Shown piece by piece: positions 27,170 to 32,789 of a stretch of DNA of 47,517 nucleotides. Source of the DNA: Elusimicrobiales bacterium. GTDB taxonomy: Bacteria; Elusimicrobiota; Elusimicrobia; Elusimicrobiales; UBA9959. Location: assembly GCA_024681855.1 (NCBI GenBank), contig JAILAB010000031.1, forward strand, positions 1 to 47,517. Reading direction: 5' to 3'. The stretch's first letter is position 1, and each line of letters begins with the position of its first letter. Under the pieces are notes generated by a model. The model made no database searches and was not told where the DNA came from. It worked only from the letters and a program-made list of their open reading frames with translations. The translations under genes were made by a program, and so were the position numbers.

Positions 27170-28122
27170 TGAAGCTTGAGCCGCCAGGGCAGAAAGCTGT
27201 AATACATGAGCTTGCAAATGAAGCCGAAAAGCTTGGCTTGCGGCTTTATGCCGTGGGCGGCTGCGTGCGGGACTGGGTTATTGGACGCAATTCCTCGGAT
27301 ATAGATTTTCTTACAAGCGGCTCTGCGGAAAAACTTGCTGCATCCTTATGCCGGCTTTATGGCGGAACGTGGCAGGCTTTTGAAAAATTCCATACAGTAC
27401 GCTGTTTTACTGGAATAGGCCGCATAGACTTAGCCAGATTCCGCAAGGAAATTTATCCTTCTCCTGCCTCATTGCCGCAAACGCTTCCTGCTGAAACATT
27501 GGAACAGGATTTGCGGCGCCGGGATTTTACCGTGAATGCCATGGCCGTGGAGCTTACAGGCGGTTCTTTTGAGCTTACCGATTTATATAATGGCCTTGAT
27601 GATATTAAGGCTGGCATTGTTCGTGTTTTACATAAAGACAGTTTCTTTGATGATCCTACGCGTATTTACAGGGCAGCGCGTTTCGCTGCCCGATTTGGCT
27701 GGCAGCTTGCTCCGGAAACGGCAGCTTGCGCAGCAGGCGCTATAGCTGCCGGCATTCCAGCAAGGCTTTCCCGGGAAAGGATTCGCAATGAGCTTTTTAA
27801 GATACTTTCCGATTCTAAGCCCTGCATGGCAATGGAAATATTAAATTCCATGGGCGCTTTGGATTTTATTTTCCCTAAATTAAAGCCTGTTCCTCAGATT
27901 GAAAAAATATCTTCCAGAGCTGCTCAGCTTGCGGTTATAGCCTCAAATCTTGATGACGGGGCAGCTTTCATAGCCAGTTTGCGGCTTTCAAAAAAAGAAA
28001 GCAGGGAAATATTTGAGCTTTCAGGCCTTTCTGTTTCACGAAGAAAACATAGCAGGGGCTTGCTACAAAACAAAAAAGATATCAATATTGGAAAAGAAAG
28101 CCAAAATGAAAAAGAAAAGTAA
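27169..28122 (+). CDS. tRNA nucleotidyltransferase / poly(A) polymerase family protein, short
   Basis: The 317-residue protein is a class II CCA-adding/PcnB family enzyme. Head-domain motifs are complete: VGGCVRDWVIG, the metal-binding SDIDF (two Asp), RRDFTVNAMA, and DDPTRIYRAARFAARF, followed by RLSRERIRNELFKIL of the neck. The family is usually 400 or more residues; here the body/tail region is short and ends in a Lys-rich stretch that overlaps the next gene. It may add only CC or A, repair CCA ends, or be 3'-truncated. The one tRNA gene in the window already encodes CCA, so a repair role is compatible. Confidence 0.85.
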   Translation: MKLEPPGQKAVIHELANEAEKLGLRLYAVGGCVRDWVIGRNSSDIDFLTSGSAEKLAASLCRLYGGTWQAFEKFHTVRCFTGIGRIDLARFRKEIYPSPASLPQTLPAETLEQDLRRRDFTVNAMAVELTGGSFELTDLYNGLDDIKAGIVRVLHKDSFFDDPTRIYRAARFAARFGWQLAPETAACAAGAIAAGIPARLSRERIRNELFKILSDSKPCMAMEILNSMGALDFIFPKLKPVPQIEKISSRAAQLAVIASNLDDGAAFIASLRLSKKESREIFELSGLSVSRRKHSRGLLQNKKDINIGKESQNEKEK

Positions 28123-29047
28123 GACTAAATTTTTTTCTAAAAATATTTATAATGATTATTTGTTTTGGTTAGCCATAACTGTTTCTTTGCTTATGCCTAA
28201 TGTTTTTTTTCCATCTGCCATTGAAGCTGAAGAGGCTTCAAGGCTTTCCCCTTATTCCATTCTGCGTGATAATGGCCTTTTGCCGGAGGGGAGCGCTTTT
28301 TTTAAAAGCCCTAATCTGGAAAATGTGTTCTGGGCTGTGAATGACAGCAAGAATGCTCCTGCCCTGTTTGCTTTTGATGCAAGCGGAGAAATGATATTGC
28401 CTGATAATAATGTTTCCAGCCAGCCATATAAAGGCATAACCGTATCAAATGCCTCAAACCGGGACTGGGAAGCTCTTGCGGGAGATGATAAAGGCAATAT
28501 AATAATATGTGATGCCGGCAATAATAAAAATATGAGAAAAGACCTTGCCGTATATTTATTGCCTGAGCCTGACCCAAGAGTTGACTTAGCGTCTAAGCCG
28601 GCTGAAAAGATATTTTTTTCTTATCCGGACCAGAAAAAATTTCCTCCAAAGAAGAAGAATTTTGACTCAGAGGCTTGCTTTTGGCATGACGGGCATCTTT
28701 TCCTTTTCACAAAAAATCGCGCTGATTCCAAAACTAAGCTTTACCGCTTTCCTTCTTTAAATCCTAAGAAGAAACAGGTCCTAAAACTTATTGGAAGCTT
28801 TGAAACCGGCGGTATGGTTACCGATGCCGCCGTAAATGCCAGCGGAAACAGAATTGCCGTATTAACCTATTATGGGGCTTATCTGTTAGAAAAAGGCAAA
28901 AAGAAAAAAATATTGTCCTGGCATAGAAAATTCTATCCTTTCAGCGCAGGCCAATGTGAAGGCATAACCTTTGCTGATGATGAAACTTTGCTTATTACTA
29001 ATGAGAACAGAAATATTTATAGGATTTCTGTTTCTGATTTCCGCTAG
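28106..29047 (+). CDS. Secreted beta-propeller-like protein
   Basis: The 313-residue product starts, in my reading, at the ATG at 28106. This gives a Lys-rich n-region and a hydrophobic segment (YLFWLAITVSLLMPNVFF) followed by an AEAEE-like cut site. A start at 28013 would place 31 unlikely residues before it. The mature part has repeated strands such as DWEALAGDDKGNIIICDAGN and NRIAVLTYYGAYLLEKGKK, resembling SdiA-regulated or NHL-type propellers. Function unknown. It overlaps the preceding gene by 17 bases and converges on the sensor-kinase gene with a 20-base gap. Confidence 0.65.
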   Translation: MKKKSKTKFFSKNIYNDYLFWLAITVSLLMPNVFFPSAIEAEEASRLSPYSILRDNGLLPEGSAFFKSPNLENVFWAVNDSKNAPALFAFDASGEMILPDNNVSSQPYKGITVSNASNRDWEALAGDDKGNIIICDAGNNKNMRKDLAVYLLPEPDPRVDLASKPAEKIFFSYPDQKKFPPKKKNFDSEACFWHDGHLFLFTKNRADSKTKLYRFPSLNPKKKQVLKLIGSFETGGMVTDAAVNASGNRIAVLTYYGAYLLEKGKKKKILSWHRKFYPFSAGQCEGITFADDETLLITNENRNIYRISVSDFR

Positions 29048-29067: not shown

Positions 29068-32061
29068 TTAAGGCTTATGCTCTTCATCCTCTTTGTTTTT
29101 TTTCAGTACAGGGTTTCTGGCATAGCTTTGGAATGAAGCCGTAAGCTTAGCCGCTCTTTCCGTAGCTTTGAGTATTTGCCTTAATGCCGCTATTACGCGC
29201 GTATCGTCTTTCACCGTCTCGGATAATAATGTGGCATAGCCGGTTATCACTGTTAGAATATTGTTGAAATCGTGTCCTATTGGCCGCATTTTCATGCTGA
29301 CAATTTCTTTGGCAGCCGCTAATGCTTCATCGGTGGTTTGCTCATGCTCTTTCGTTAAATCCCTTCCGACTACTACTACGCCTGACACTTCGCCCATGGG
29401 ATTAAAAACCGGGGAACAGGAAAGGCTTTCATAAAAAGTTCCTGTAGGATATTTTTTTGTTCTTGTAAGAAACCTGGCTGTCTTGTTTTCAAAAATAGCC
29501 TTTATTTCTTTGCTTGTTTTTATATTTTTAGTAATGCCCAGCTCAAAAACTGTCTTGCCTTTCATTTCCTCCACAGTCTTTCCGTATCTTTCAGCTGCGG
29601 CATTGTTTATCATTAAGAATCTGTCTTCTTTGTCTACCACGAATATGAAATCTTTAGAGTTTTCAAATATATGATCCAAAATGAATTCCATTGCGAGTAT
29701 TTTCTCGTATTTTTCATTCATTTCGGAATAATCTCTTGTTATTATGGCTGTGGCTGACACATTTCCGGCAGGGTCGTTAACAGGTATTATCCTATGTTCA
29801 AAATTTCTTTTCTTGCCATTTTCAGCTGGCAAGTCTTCCATAAATGTCAGGGGCATTCCTTTTTGCACAGCTTCTTCCAGGTATTTTCCAAGCTGATAAG
29901 AAATGCCTTTGTGGAAAATCAGGCTTTTGCTGCTATTGCCGCTTTCCATATTGTCATAGGTTATTCTCTTCTCTTTATCTAGCAGCTGCACATGATCTGG
30001 CAGGAAAGATAGTATGGCAGATAGTTTTGCGTTTGTTTTCAGCAGTTCATTGCTAAGCGTTCTTAGTGCTTTTATTTCGCGGCCTGCTACGATGGCTATT
30101 TTGTCATCGTTGAAATAAGTTTCTGAAGAAAAAATCTCCAATTCTGTCTCATTGCCATTTTTATCCGAAAATGGAATATTAATATGCGTATTTGGATTAT
30201 TTAACGCATTATAAATTTTTGTATTGGCTTCTTCGTTTTTGCCGAATATTTCCAGAATGTTTTTTCCTATAATTTCTTTTTCTGGAATGCCGGATAATTT
30301 ACAGAATGCCTTGTTGGCAAAAAGCAGTTTTCTGGATTTTAAGTCAATAGCAAAAAGCATGTCTGGAGCATTGTTTAGAATATCTAGTCCGAAAGCTGTT
30401 TCCTTCTGATGCTGTTCTTCAGCTGAAAGATCCTCTATTATGACTAACATTATCTGCTCTTGTTCTGGCAGATTTATAAGTGTCATCGCTAACCTGACAG
30501 AGATTTCTTTATCTGCTAACTTTAATGTGCTTTTTTTTGTTATTGTAAATGACTCTTTGCTTATGCTTTTCGCCTTTATTTTTTCTAGAGTTTTTTCAAT
30601 ATTTTTTCTTTCTTCCTTTGGATGAAAGCTAAGAATATTGTATTTTGTGATTTCTTTTTTATTAAGATTCAAAAAATTTTCTGCGCTCTTATTGGCCCGC
30701 AATATTTTCCCGCTGTCCGGATCAGTTATTAATATTGGCAATGGGCTTTTTGAAAAAATAGTCTTGTAAAAAAGATTAGTCTGGTTTAGTTCCTGCTGTT
30801 TCTTTATGTCTTCCGTAATGTCTTTTAATATGGCAGAAACTGAAAGCAGTCCGTCACTTGTTTTATTAACTATTAATTTCATCTGAGTAAGCATTTCGGT
30901 GCCATCTTTTTTGAGTATGCGGCAGACGAAAGAAGGGCTCTCTTTGCCTATGCTTAGCAGATTTTCCATTTTTTCATTGAATCTGTTAATCTCCTCTTCA
31001 GGAAGAAATTCTTTTATATTATGTCCTTCTGTTTCTTTTACGGAATAGCCTGTTTTTTTTACAAGAGGGCTCATGTATGTTATGATTCCATGGGCATTGA
31101 AAGTAAATATCAAATCCCAGGAAGCATTTAACAATGAGGATTTTTCCTTGTTTTGTAGCATTTGCCTGCTCATTTCTGCTTTGTAGGAAATCACTTGAGA
31201 ATATATGTGCGACATTCTTTTGATCATGCGCAAATTTCCAGGCGTGAAATCCTTTTCATAGTTAGCAAGCATTAGCATTCCTGCCGGAGTGCCGCAATAA
31301 ACTATAGGCACAGCTATATATTTTTTTAGCATGCCTTCAGTTTCGGATGTCAGCGATTCTTCGCTCGTAGAGAGGCCTTTAAGCATTTTCTTTGCCTGCT
31401 CTTTTGCCATCTCAGCGAGAATGGGGCTTGATGCAGAGTAAACTTCACTTAATAATATGTTATCCTTCCCTATTATTACAGCATATGCTATTTCACAGAG
31501 CGTAAGCCTGCGAGTTTCGTCTAAAATTGTGCGTGAGCATATATCTGTAGGCAAATTTGGGAAAGAGAAAAAAAACTTTTCTAGTTTTTTAATTGACTCA
31601 TTTGCTTCATCTTCCGCAGCTATTATCATGTCTTTGCGGAGCATTTCTGTTTTGTTTTTTATCAGTTCCGCAAATGCGTGAAATAGATTTATTTTTTCTT
31701 CTGGGAATATGTAGTTTATGTCTTTAGGCTTAATTGCGAGCCAGGAGCTGTTTCCGCATATATGAATTATGAGAAGATTGTTTTCCTCTGATTTTTTTGT
31801 GTCTTTTTCTTCATTAACACATTTTATTATTTGAGTAATTTCGTCTTCGGAAAGGCGGCTTGAAAATTCCTTTTTAAAAGAATAGATGTTTAAGGATAAA
31901 AGTATGCCTATTTTATCGCCAATTGATGGATTGTCATGTATTATTTTTGCTGATTTTTCAAAAAAATCGTCTATGCTTAATCCTGCGTTTAACAGGGACA
32001 TAATCCCCATAAATGTACGCTGGCATTCCATAATTTCTTTTTTTTCTGCTGTTTTCTTCAT
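29068..32061 (-). CDS. GAF/multi-PAS sensor histidine kinase lacking the ATPase domain
   Basis: The 997-residue protein has a GAF-like N-terminal part (about 1-300), then about five PAS domains starting near residues 308, 428, 558, 682 and 792. A dimerisation/phosphoacceptor domain follows with PIGHDFNNILTVITGY; the H-box is His930. In relatives a HATPase domain with N, G1 and G2 boxes comes next. Here the protein ends 67 residues after the His with a charged tail. No membrane helices are seen, so sensing is cytoplasmic. The response regulator lies 41 bases upstream on the same strand. Autophosphorylation is not expected without a partner supplying the catalytic domain. Confidence 0.88.
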   Translation of the reverse strand: MKKTAEKKEIMECQRTFMGIMSLLNAGLSIDDFFEKSAKIIHDNPSIGDKIGILLSLNIYSFKKEFSSRLSEDEITQIIKCVNEEKDTKKSEENNLLIIHICGNSSWLAIKPKDINYIFPEEKINLFHAFAELIKNKTEMLRKDMIIAAEDEANESIKKLEKFFFSFPNLPTDICSRTILDETRRLTLCEIAYAVIIGKDNILLSEVYSASSPILAEMAKEQAKKMLKGLSTSEESLTSETEGMLKKYIAVPIVYCGTPAGMLMLANYEKDFTPGNLRMIKRMSHIYSQVISYKAEMSRQMLQNKEKSSLLNASWDLIFTFNAHGIITYMSPLVKKTGYSVKETEGHNIKEFLPEEEINRFNEKMENLLSIGKESPSFVCRILKKDGTEMLTQMKLIVNKTSDGLLSVSAILKDITEDIKKQQELNQTNLFYKTIFSKSPLPILITDPDSGKILRANKSAENFLNLNKKEITKYNILSFHPKEERKNIEKTLEKIKAKSISKESFTITKKSTLKLADKEISVRLAMTLINLPEQEQIMLVIIEDLSAEEQHQKETAFGLDILNNAPDMLFAIDLKSRKLLFANKAFCKLSGIPEKEIIGKNILEIFGKNEEANTKIYNALNNPNTHINIPFSDKNGNETELEIFSSETYFNDDKIAIVAGREIKALRTLSNELLKTNAKLSAILSFLPDHVQLLDKEKRITYDNMESGNSSKSLIFHKGISYQLGKYLEEAVQKGMPLTFMEDLPAENGKKRNFEHRIIPVNDPAGNVSATAIITRDYSEMNEKYEKILAMEFILDHIFENSKDFIFVVDKEDRFLMINNAAAERYGKTVEEMKGKTVFELGITKNIKTSKEIKAIFENKTARFLTRTKKYPTGTFYESLSCSPVFNPMGEVSGVVVVGRDLTKEHEQTTDEALAAAKEIVSMKMRPIGHDFNNILTVITGYATLLSETVKDDTRVIAALRQILKATERAAKLTASFQSYARNPVLKKNKEDEEHKP

Positions 32062-32102: not shown

Positions 32103-32789
32103 CTATTCAATGGTATAACCATGTCCCTGAACTGCCACTATGCTTTTTGCCATGCTGCCAAGTTTTTTGCGCAGGTTTGAGATATGCACTTCAACTGTAT
32201 GATAATTAGAGTAATCTTCCGTATTATATCCCCATATGCTTTCAAGCAGATTGGGAGCGCTCAATATTGATCCCCTGTTAGCTATCAGCGCAGCAAGAAG
32301 GTCAAATTCCTTGGCTGTGAGCTTTAGCGGGCTTTCGCCTATTTTAGCGGTTCTGTTTTTAGTGTTTATCAGTATGCCTTTATATTCTAATATTGGATTT
32401 TTGTCGGCATATATGCCTGTTATGCGCAACAGGGCTTTTATTTTTGCCAAAAGAACCGGATAGGAGAATGGCTTAGATATATAATCATCAGCGCCTAATG
32501 TATAGCCGGAAAGCATGTCTGTCTCAGAAATCTTTTTGCCAGACATTATTATCATTGGTATTGAAGACAGTATTTCAGAGTCTTTTATTTTCTTGCATAA
32601 TGTAAGGCCGTCCATGCGAGGCATGTCAACGTCAGCAAGTATTATGTCTGGCCTGTCCTTTGCCGTAATGCCAAGGGCTATGGTGCCATTTGAGGCAACT
32701 TGTGTCTGAAAGCCATGGTTTTCAAGATACTGCTTTATTATTCCTGCCAGATCTTTATCATCGTCAACTATCAGAACTTTTTCCGCCAT
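32103..32789 (-). CDS. OmpR/PhoB-family response regulator
   Basis: The 228-residue regulator has a receiver domain with acidic pocket DDD at residues 9-11, phosphoacceptor Asp53 (ADVDMPRMDG), a switch Ser in MSGKK and the conserved Lys in YISKPF. A winged-helix DNA-binding domain fills residues 130-228, with LTAKEFDLLAAL and VEVHISNLRKKLG as in OmpR/PhoB. It precedes the kinase-like sensor gene and is likely cotranscribed with it. A TATAAT lies at 32827-32822 on the minus strand, about 33 bases upstream of the start. Confidence 0.93.
   Translation of the reverse strand: MAEKVLIVDDDKDLAGIIKQYLENHGFQTQVASNGTIALGITAKDRPDIILADVDMPRMDGLTLCKKIKDSEILSSIPMIIMSGKKISETDMLSGYTLGADDYISKPFSYPVLLAKIKALLRITGIYADKNPILEYKGILINTKNRTAKIGESPLKLTAKEFDLLAALIANRGSILSAPNLLESIWGYNTEDYSNYHTVEVHISNLRKKLGSMAKSIVAVQGHGYTIE

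Follow-up and report, generated by a model that had tools for sequence, protein, structure and literature searches.

The gene at 29068..32061 and its product

The 47,517-nucleotide stretch of DNA analysed here (the window) is contig C29 of a draft genome (2.02 Mb in 81 contigs, ~90% complete) of an Elusimicrobiales bacterium belonging to the family UBA9959 of the Elusimicrobiota. Its minus strand carries, at 29068..32061, a complete open reading frame (ORF) with an ATG start, encoding a 997-aa protein in which PAS sensor domains lead into the phospho-acceptor hairpin of a histidine kinase and the chain then ends: the ATPase domain is missing. Directly upstream on the same strand lies the gene of a 228-aa OmpR-type response regulator (32103..32789; Response_reg and Trans_reg_C); at the other end, a convergent ORF stops at 29047, 20 bases away.

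Pfam places PAS families in four stretches of the protein, followed by HisKA; NCBIfam sensory_box also marks four stretches, the best at residues 309-425. From the N-terminus, with all features on the minus strand, a weak GAF-like region at residues 216-291 (31189..31416; GAF_2, E 1.9e-4, below the curated cut-off) precedes PAS domains at residues 309-425 (30787..31137; TIGR00229, with PAS_3 at 328-398), 561-657 (30091..30381; PAS and PAS_9) and 799-906 (29344..29667; PAS_4). The last of these is joined by a single long helix in the structural model to the DHp (HisKA) hairpin, residues 914-985 (29107..29322), predicted as two long helices. No 19-residue window of the protein exceeds 1.55 on the Kyte-Doolittle scale, and therefore no membrane helix is indicated in the sensor part. 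The hairpin contains the motif H-D-F-N-N, beginning at the phospho-acceptor His930 (codon 29272..29274), after which 67 residues remain; where the ATPase domain would be, there is a 12-residue tail and a stop codon (29068..29106).

The HisKA match (residues 929-982) scores 24.4 bits in the full-length protein, just below the cut-off of 26.9, and 27.2 bits, above it, in the C-terminal piece alone. All 37 C-termini in an alignment of the family (A1) match PF00512 at E<=0.01, and no HATPase family figures among the 13 Pfam families listed for these 37 pieces; because every one of these relatives shows it, the pattern of HisKA without HATPase is not a chance one. Pfam finds no HATPase_c (the N, G1 and G2 boxes) in the 997-aa protein, which is not, then, a complete histidine kinase, and no Hpt domain (PF01627) at E<=1. 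A six-frame search of the genome with PF02518 (E<=0.001) hits six places, none of them on C29; the contig accordingly holds no recognisable lost ATPase fragment in another frame, and displacement of the domain into another frame or downstream was rejected. An earlier note, made from the sequence of this DNA alone, had described a truncated-looking kinase with no room for a lost fragment ahead of the convergent ORF. Both observations stand, and the HATPase_c search that it proposed is negative on protein and contig alike. The protein fits the class "HisKA, no HATPase", an incomplete histidine kinase in the sense of P2CS: sensor domains and the HisKA His are present, and HATPase is unrecognisable.

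An AlphaFold model of the last 213 residues, made with 37 aligned sequences, has a PAS domain, one long helix (model residues 119-165) and a two-helix hairpin, at a mean pLDDT of 87; ten-residue blocks of the hairpin score 77-86 and the C-terminal tail is of low confidence (59 and 40 in the last two blocks). Foldseek ranks chimeric LOV-histidine kinases highest in the PDB, though their TM-scores, normalised to query length, reach only 0.45-0.53. The best PDB profile match, at E 4.4e-18 across PAS and DHp, is 3a0r, a 349-aa chain entered as "Sensor protein". This is presumably ThkA, a PAS-DHp-HATPase kinase that, unlike the protein considered here, we take to have kept its ATPase domain.

An ATPase-less form conserved beside a regulator

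The sister species (G001) has a full-length relative, 45% identical, that likewise ends after the hairpin. A profile built from A1 and run over 59 genomes of the family finds a close relative (E<=1e-50) in 54 of them, at 62 places, including 37 of 38 good-quality genomes and 12 of 13 genera; the five genomes with no match at that threshold (G007, G024, G029, G298 and G305) are 60-90% complete. Two duplicates, L073 (G251) and L072 (G301), are excluded from the 62 copies; the tree and the sets of 54 hairpins and 45 regulators referred to below each include one row for genomes G251 and G301. Every copy with a sequenced end, 61 of the 62 and from 54 genomes, ends without an ATPase domain, judged with an ATPase profile of our own (E<=1e-4) and, for the C-terminal pieces of the 37, with Pfam; the remaining copy (L240, in G303) is cut by a contig end inside the hairpin. 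Only 0-25 residues follow the profile match (55 rows, two duplicates among them), and no C-terminal remnant of an ATPase fold is seen.

The profile was made from 37 ATPase-less members, and the state of the remaining copies was read afterwards; the score gap that separates them from ATPase-bearing proteins is therefore partly a matter of construction. With that reservation, among the matches listed for 294 genomes of the phylum, all those above 200 bits fall within the family and the next reach at most 169 bits. Lower-scoring relatives carry the ATPase domain in 20 of 20 fetched (L202-L221). At the best 78 loci outside the family (L074-L151), four of 86 ORFs with a profile score above 60 had no ATPase match; these were discarded as ATPase-less relatives, two being cut by the edge of the locus and two matching the PAS part only. 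A tree (method "quick") of 54 ATPase-less and 43 ATPase-bearing rows places all of the former on one side of a branch with an SH-aLRT support of 96, within which the window's protein and that of the sister species sit on a long branch. A single origin of the ATPase-less form may thus be envisaged, and is compatible with this topology.

Within the protein, constraint is strongest on the hairpin. Between the window and the sister species it is identical at 57 of 72 positions (79%), as against 442 of 993 (45%) for the whole protein and 88 of 296 (30%) for the N-terminal 300 residues; the adjacent regulators share 157 of 234. Nonsynonymous divergence (dN) follows the same order, at 0.17 for the hairpin, 0.51 overall and 0.76 for the N-terminus, with synonymous divergence (dS) saturated or nearly so. 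The His is invariant in the 37 sequences of A1 and, together with the phosphatase-type Asn four residues on (+4; Asn934 in the window), in all 62 copies. The Asp at +1 is kept in 61, so that the reaction centre reads H-D-x-x-N everywhere except in one paralogue (L070), where it is H-N-x-x-N.

At ten positions, among them H, D+1, N+3, N+4, L+6, I+9 and G+11, the 54 ATPase-less hairpins agree with 40 ATPase-bearing ones on a residue that each group holds at 85% or more. At eight other positions each group holds a different residue at 60% or more. Going from ATPase-bearing to ATPase-less, these switches are K to A at -13, G to S at -8, G to R at -4 and G to P at -3 upstream of the His, and D to E at +29, L to Q at +48, S to A at +51 and Q to P at +54 downstream; the window's protein has the ATPase-less residue at seven of the eight, the exception being +29. 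The two Gly before the His, present in 93% and 90% of the HATPase-bearing relatives, have mostly given way to Arg and Pro in the ATPase-less copies. The switches would fit a hairpin no longer coupled to a catalytic domain, and we infer that they may reflect this.

In 51 of the 62 copies an OmpR-type regulator gene lies directly upstream; in two (L047 and L239) the site is out of view beyond a contig end, and nine off-site paralogues (L033, L063, L069, L070, L193-L196 and L233) have none there, one of them (L195) having a receiver-only ORF 159 bases upstream. The acidic pair D9/D10, D53 and K106 (window numbering) do not vary among the 45 aligned regulators, so that the regulator should be phosphorylatable. 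A short form found in nearly all relatives in the family, mostly beside the same partner gene, is a working part and not a broken gene.

The surroundings of the pair are conserved more loosely. Names of neighbours derive from Pfam matches (RecG_wedge, PolyA_pol, CpXC, PALP), the PolyA_pol neighbour being taken by us as a CCA-adding enzyme, and many loci are cut off by the end of a contig or of the fetched stretch, which bears on the counts. Of the 51 copies with a paired regulator, 37 have a divergent recG upstream and four (L040, L044, L052 and L058) have recG downstream; in ten it is not seen. A convergent CCA-adding-enzyme gene lies downstream in 30, and the two arrangements (recG divergent upstream, CCA gene convergent downstream) coincide in 23. 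One gene or both are close by in 48, neither being seen in L041, L049 and L237. Uniform synteny was looked for across these copies and not found. Genes for a CpXC protein and a pyridoxal-phosphate (PLP)-dependent enzyme are often next at the locus. In the window, recG lies upstream, and the CCA gene is found downstream beyond one intervening gene. The convergent neighbour (28013-29047, plus strand) has a weak NHL match only; its relatives adjoin the ATPase-less gene in L032, L190 and L191 and lie further away in L188 and L197. Proteins with two receiver domains are also encoded downstream of the ATPase-less gene, touching it or up to ~2.6 kb off, in L046 (9448-10275, by Pfam), L062, L068, L188 and L232.

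Candidate phosphate donors

The six PF02518 places in the window's genome resolve into four kinases with a HisKA of their own and two non-kinases, presumably GyrB and MutL. In addition to DHp and HATPase, each of the four kinases has a receiver, Cache/PAS domains or a hydrophobic segment at the N-terminus; a sensorless kinase was not seen among them. Ten receiver matches include five stand-alone receivers, whose frames are 126-160 aa long, and there is no Hpt match at E<=1 in this ~90% complete genome. With no Hpt match, four kinases and five stand-alone receivers, a relay is possible. The window's genus (G000, the window's genome, and G001) has six HATPase_c matches per genome, as against 11 to at least 64 in other genomes of the family, a difference that could stem from reduction of the kinase set or from lack of its expansion. 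Because it keeps the regulator-paired cassette and has only four recognisable kinases, the window's genome is a good one in which to look for the donor.

Elsewhere in the family, a sensorless DHp-HATPase ORF, or mini-kinase, lies within 1 kb of the ATPase-less gene in ten of 54 genomes (L035, L052, L058, L064, L067, L068, L182, L183, L197 and L236), in frames of 223-275 aa, or 467 aa in L064, whose frame stays open at its upstream end; the DHp is of the H-D-x-N-N class in all nine that were aligned. A second OmpR-type regulator is encoded downstream of the ATPase-less gene at six of these loci (L035, L064, L067, L182, L183 and L236). As a universal partner the mini-kinase was rejected, being so placed in these ten genomes only and not seen in the window's genome. 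Among the matches listed, small DHp-HATPase frames (~230-290 aa) also occur elsewhere in many genomes of the family, so that a distant partner of this kind is conceivable there.

Three side observations concern the same inventory. One of the four kinases (L003; C64, 16440-18272, minus strand), of dCache-HAMP-HisKA-HATPase architecture, is unusually well kept: among the matches listed, 56 of the 59 family genomes have one at 60-100% identity, three of them partial. Next to it in the window's genome are a REC-HisKA-HATPase protein and then a regulator with what we take to be a LuxR-like end domain. Frames of ~230 aa that form a second class of small kinases, 39-46% identical to the DHp-HATPase part of L003, appear in many family genomes among the matches listed (for example at 2819-3508 of C127 in G030 and 17801-18475 of C67 in G020). 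Finally, a receiver domain (L226; C32, 8905-9237) opens a 462-aa frame of the window's genome, the later part of which looks metallo-beta-lactamase-like by eye.

A proposed phosphotransfer role and its alternatives

The proposal put forward here, to which we give an even chance, is that a histidine kinase deprived of its ATPase domain gave rise to a soluble protein that transfers phosphate by way of a histidine, is gated by its PAS domains, and also drains the adjacent regulator. What is directly observed is that the ATPase domain is absent, that this absence is conserved, that a regulator is paired with the gene, that the reaction centre is intact and that the hairpin is under strong constraint. 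From there we infer that the protein dimerises, docks the regulator and transfers phosphate, as well as which way the phosphate flows and where it comes from. The ATPase domain would have been lost from a histidine kinase in an ancestor of the family. The DHp hairpin would dimerise and dock the adjacent OmpR-type regulator; His930 would take up phosphate in trans, supplied by the catalytic domain of a different kinase or by a stand-alone receiver in its phosphorylated state, and would hand it on to Asp53 of the regulator. Without incoming phosphate, the site formed by His930 and Asn934 would drain the regulator, and the PAS domains would set the balance between transfer and drainage. In its favour count the spread and uniform end of the ATPase-less form in the family, the regulator upstream in 51 of 62 copies, the kept reaction centre, the switch positions, the phosphatase activity reported for the isolated DHp of NtrB and EnvZ (PMC3510030), H-D-x-x-N in the relay protein Spo0B, the set of kinases and receivers in a genome with no Hpt match, and PhyT as a precedent already worked out (PMC5898713).

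Several points weigh against this proposal. The donors of phosphate to His930 are candidates only. In the HisKA kinases tested, E/D at +1 is reported to be needed only for autophosphorylation and T/N at +4 only for dephosphorylation (PMC3510030), and D+1, kept in 61 of the 62 copies, might just as well point to a catalytic domain that phosphorylates the protein directly. PhyT, a kinase-like phosphotransferase, is reported to have no phosphatase activity in vitro (PMC5898713), for which reason such activity is not to be assumed here. The nine paralogues without an upstream OmpR-type regulator still keep the motif, one of them as H-N-x-x-N. The comparison that yields the switch positions sets orthologues against mixed paralogues and reads the positions from sequence. 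Lastly, co-variation between DHp and regulator, over 44 pairs with an effective number of ~20, gives top pairs that are scattered.

Nor is the motif a guide. Two options of the earlier note, phosphate received from the catalytic domain of another kinase and a dominant dimer partner, may still apply. Phosphatase and phosphorelay roles lay outside its options, and an intact H-D-x-x-N would allow them equally. Spo0B, a relay protein (1ixm chain, 192 aa), carries H-D-x-x-N too, and the motif therefore fits a relay, a phosphatase and a split kinase alike; for the same reason D+1 was no longer taken to prove that a catalytic domain phosphorylates the protein directly.

Rather unlikely is a dedicated sensory phosphatase under PAS control, which would do no more than take phosphate off the adjacent regulator, the latter obtaining it from other kinases or from acetyl phosphate. 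It would explain the invariance of Asn+4 in 62 copies and a locus with no universal partner kinase gene, and it has precedents: the DHp of NtrB or EnvZ is described as a phosphatase on its own, although the ATPase domain raises the activity greatly (PMC3510030), and the DHp of HK853 has been assayed for phosphatase activity (PMC5727384). The His has also been implicated in phosphatase activity (PMC5727384), and its invariance thus fails to discriminate phosphatase from transfer. What a phosphatase leaves unaccounted for is D+1, reported as dispensable for that activity in tested HisKA proteins (PMC3510030) and yet kept in 61 copies.

In a split kinase or heterodimer, the hairpin would pair with a DHp-HATPase protein, in some genomes the nearby mini-kinase, whose catalytic domain phosphorylates His930. 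This is distinctly improbable. EnvZ is reported to function with its DHp and its ATPase in two different polypeptides, and SMART counts 1,556 HisKA proteins without HATPase among 42,417 (PMC3591291); mini-kinases with an H-D-x-N-N hairpin lie near the gene in ten genomes, and small DHp-HATPase frames are found farther off in many. In the other 44 of 54 genomes, however, no mini-kinase is seen within 1 kb, some of these loci lying at contig ends; no sensorless one is seen among the four kinases of the window's genome; and the Gly pair typical of HATPase-bearing relatives has mostly been replaced. That the hairpin merely binds regulator or kinase, as a non-enzymatic scaffold or titrator, is very improbable: PhyT is described as also sequestering its own regulator (PMC5898713), but a scaffold leaves an invariant His and Asn+4 and a near-invariant Asp+1 over 62 copies unexplained. 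A decayed gene, one of the options of the earlier note, or an artefact of a draft assembly in 81 contigs can be dismissed almost entirely, since the same end is found in 61 of 61 copies from 54 genomes, since none of these orthologues has the ATPase domain whose presence the note had named as what would overturn its description, and since the hairpin is the best-conserved part of the protein, with a dN of 0.17 against 0.51 overall (dS saturated).

The protein is most likely a PAS-gated partner that transfers phosphate to its regulator or removes it, in function like Spo0B or PhyT and with no ATPase of its own. It has what these and ChpT have in common, a DHp hairpin (here in a predicted structure) bearing a phosphorylatable His, here invariant. 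The resemblance to Spo0B of B. subtilis, which is described as a phosphotransfer protein forming a two-subunit four-helix bundle (PMC11210211), lies in the helical-hairpin DHp and in H-D-x-x-N. Unlike Spo0B, which possesses a C-terminal domain and lacks a PAS sensor, the present protein has no recognisable domain after its hairpin. PhyT of Sphingomonas (PMC5898713) and ChpT of Caulobacter are dimeric kinase-like phosphotransferases feeding one regulator, to which the present protein may be likened; PhyT is reported to use a conserved His to carry phosphate from a stand-alone receiver to the regulator. An atypical ATPase fold persists in ChpT, and PhyT is membrane-anchored with what its authors suspect to be a degenerated catalytic domain (PMC5898713), whereas here the domain is gone and no membrane helix is indicated. 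CheA3/CheA4 of Rhodobacter (PMC3591291) also offers a phospho-acceptor without a catalytic domain of its own, but it is of the CheA type (P1 domain) with a known partner, whereas the present protein is of the HisKA type.

The kind of protein is thus already known. Closest in architecture are the archaeal "HisKA, no HATPase" proteins ("possible incomplete histidine kinase" in P2CS), with N-terminal PAS/GAF, a C-terminal HisKA His and no HATPase; most are said to be misannotated as kinases, and they are described as possible phospho-acceptors, phosphotransfer proteins or phosphatases (PMC5847659). A census found a phosphatase motif in 711 of the 1,556 HATPase-less HisKA proteins and suggested split kinases (PMC3591291). 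The parts of the archaeal description and of the censuses available to us report no experiments on such proteins (PMC5847659, PMC3591291). Among the best matches in open-licence PMC texts, none by title or abstract deals with the present family. The archaeal proteins are listed by architecture; what is new here is one orthologous bacterial family, at a mostly shared locus, paired with one regulator and with signature changes of its own.

Kinase-like proteins without an ATPase domain are common in censuses; in this case they form a conserved family with a regulator, a nearly invariant reaction centre and a clear signature. One member of the lineage has only four recognisable kinases, and with so few possible donors the function of such proteins is directly testable here. 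A wider view, offered as speculation and rather unlikely to hold, is that the ATPase-less protein and the OmpR-type regulator are the core of a family-wide hub on which lineage-variable kinases converge in trans, with the PAS domains gating the flow of phosphate. If that were so, sensing, use of ATP and output would in these bacteria be split over at least three proteins.

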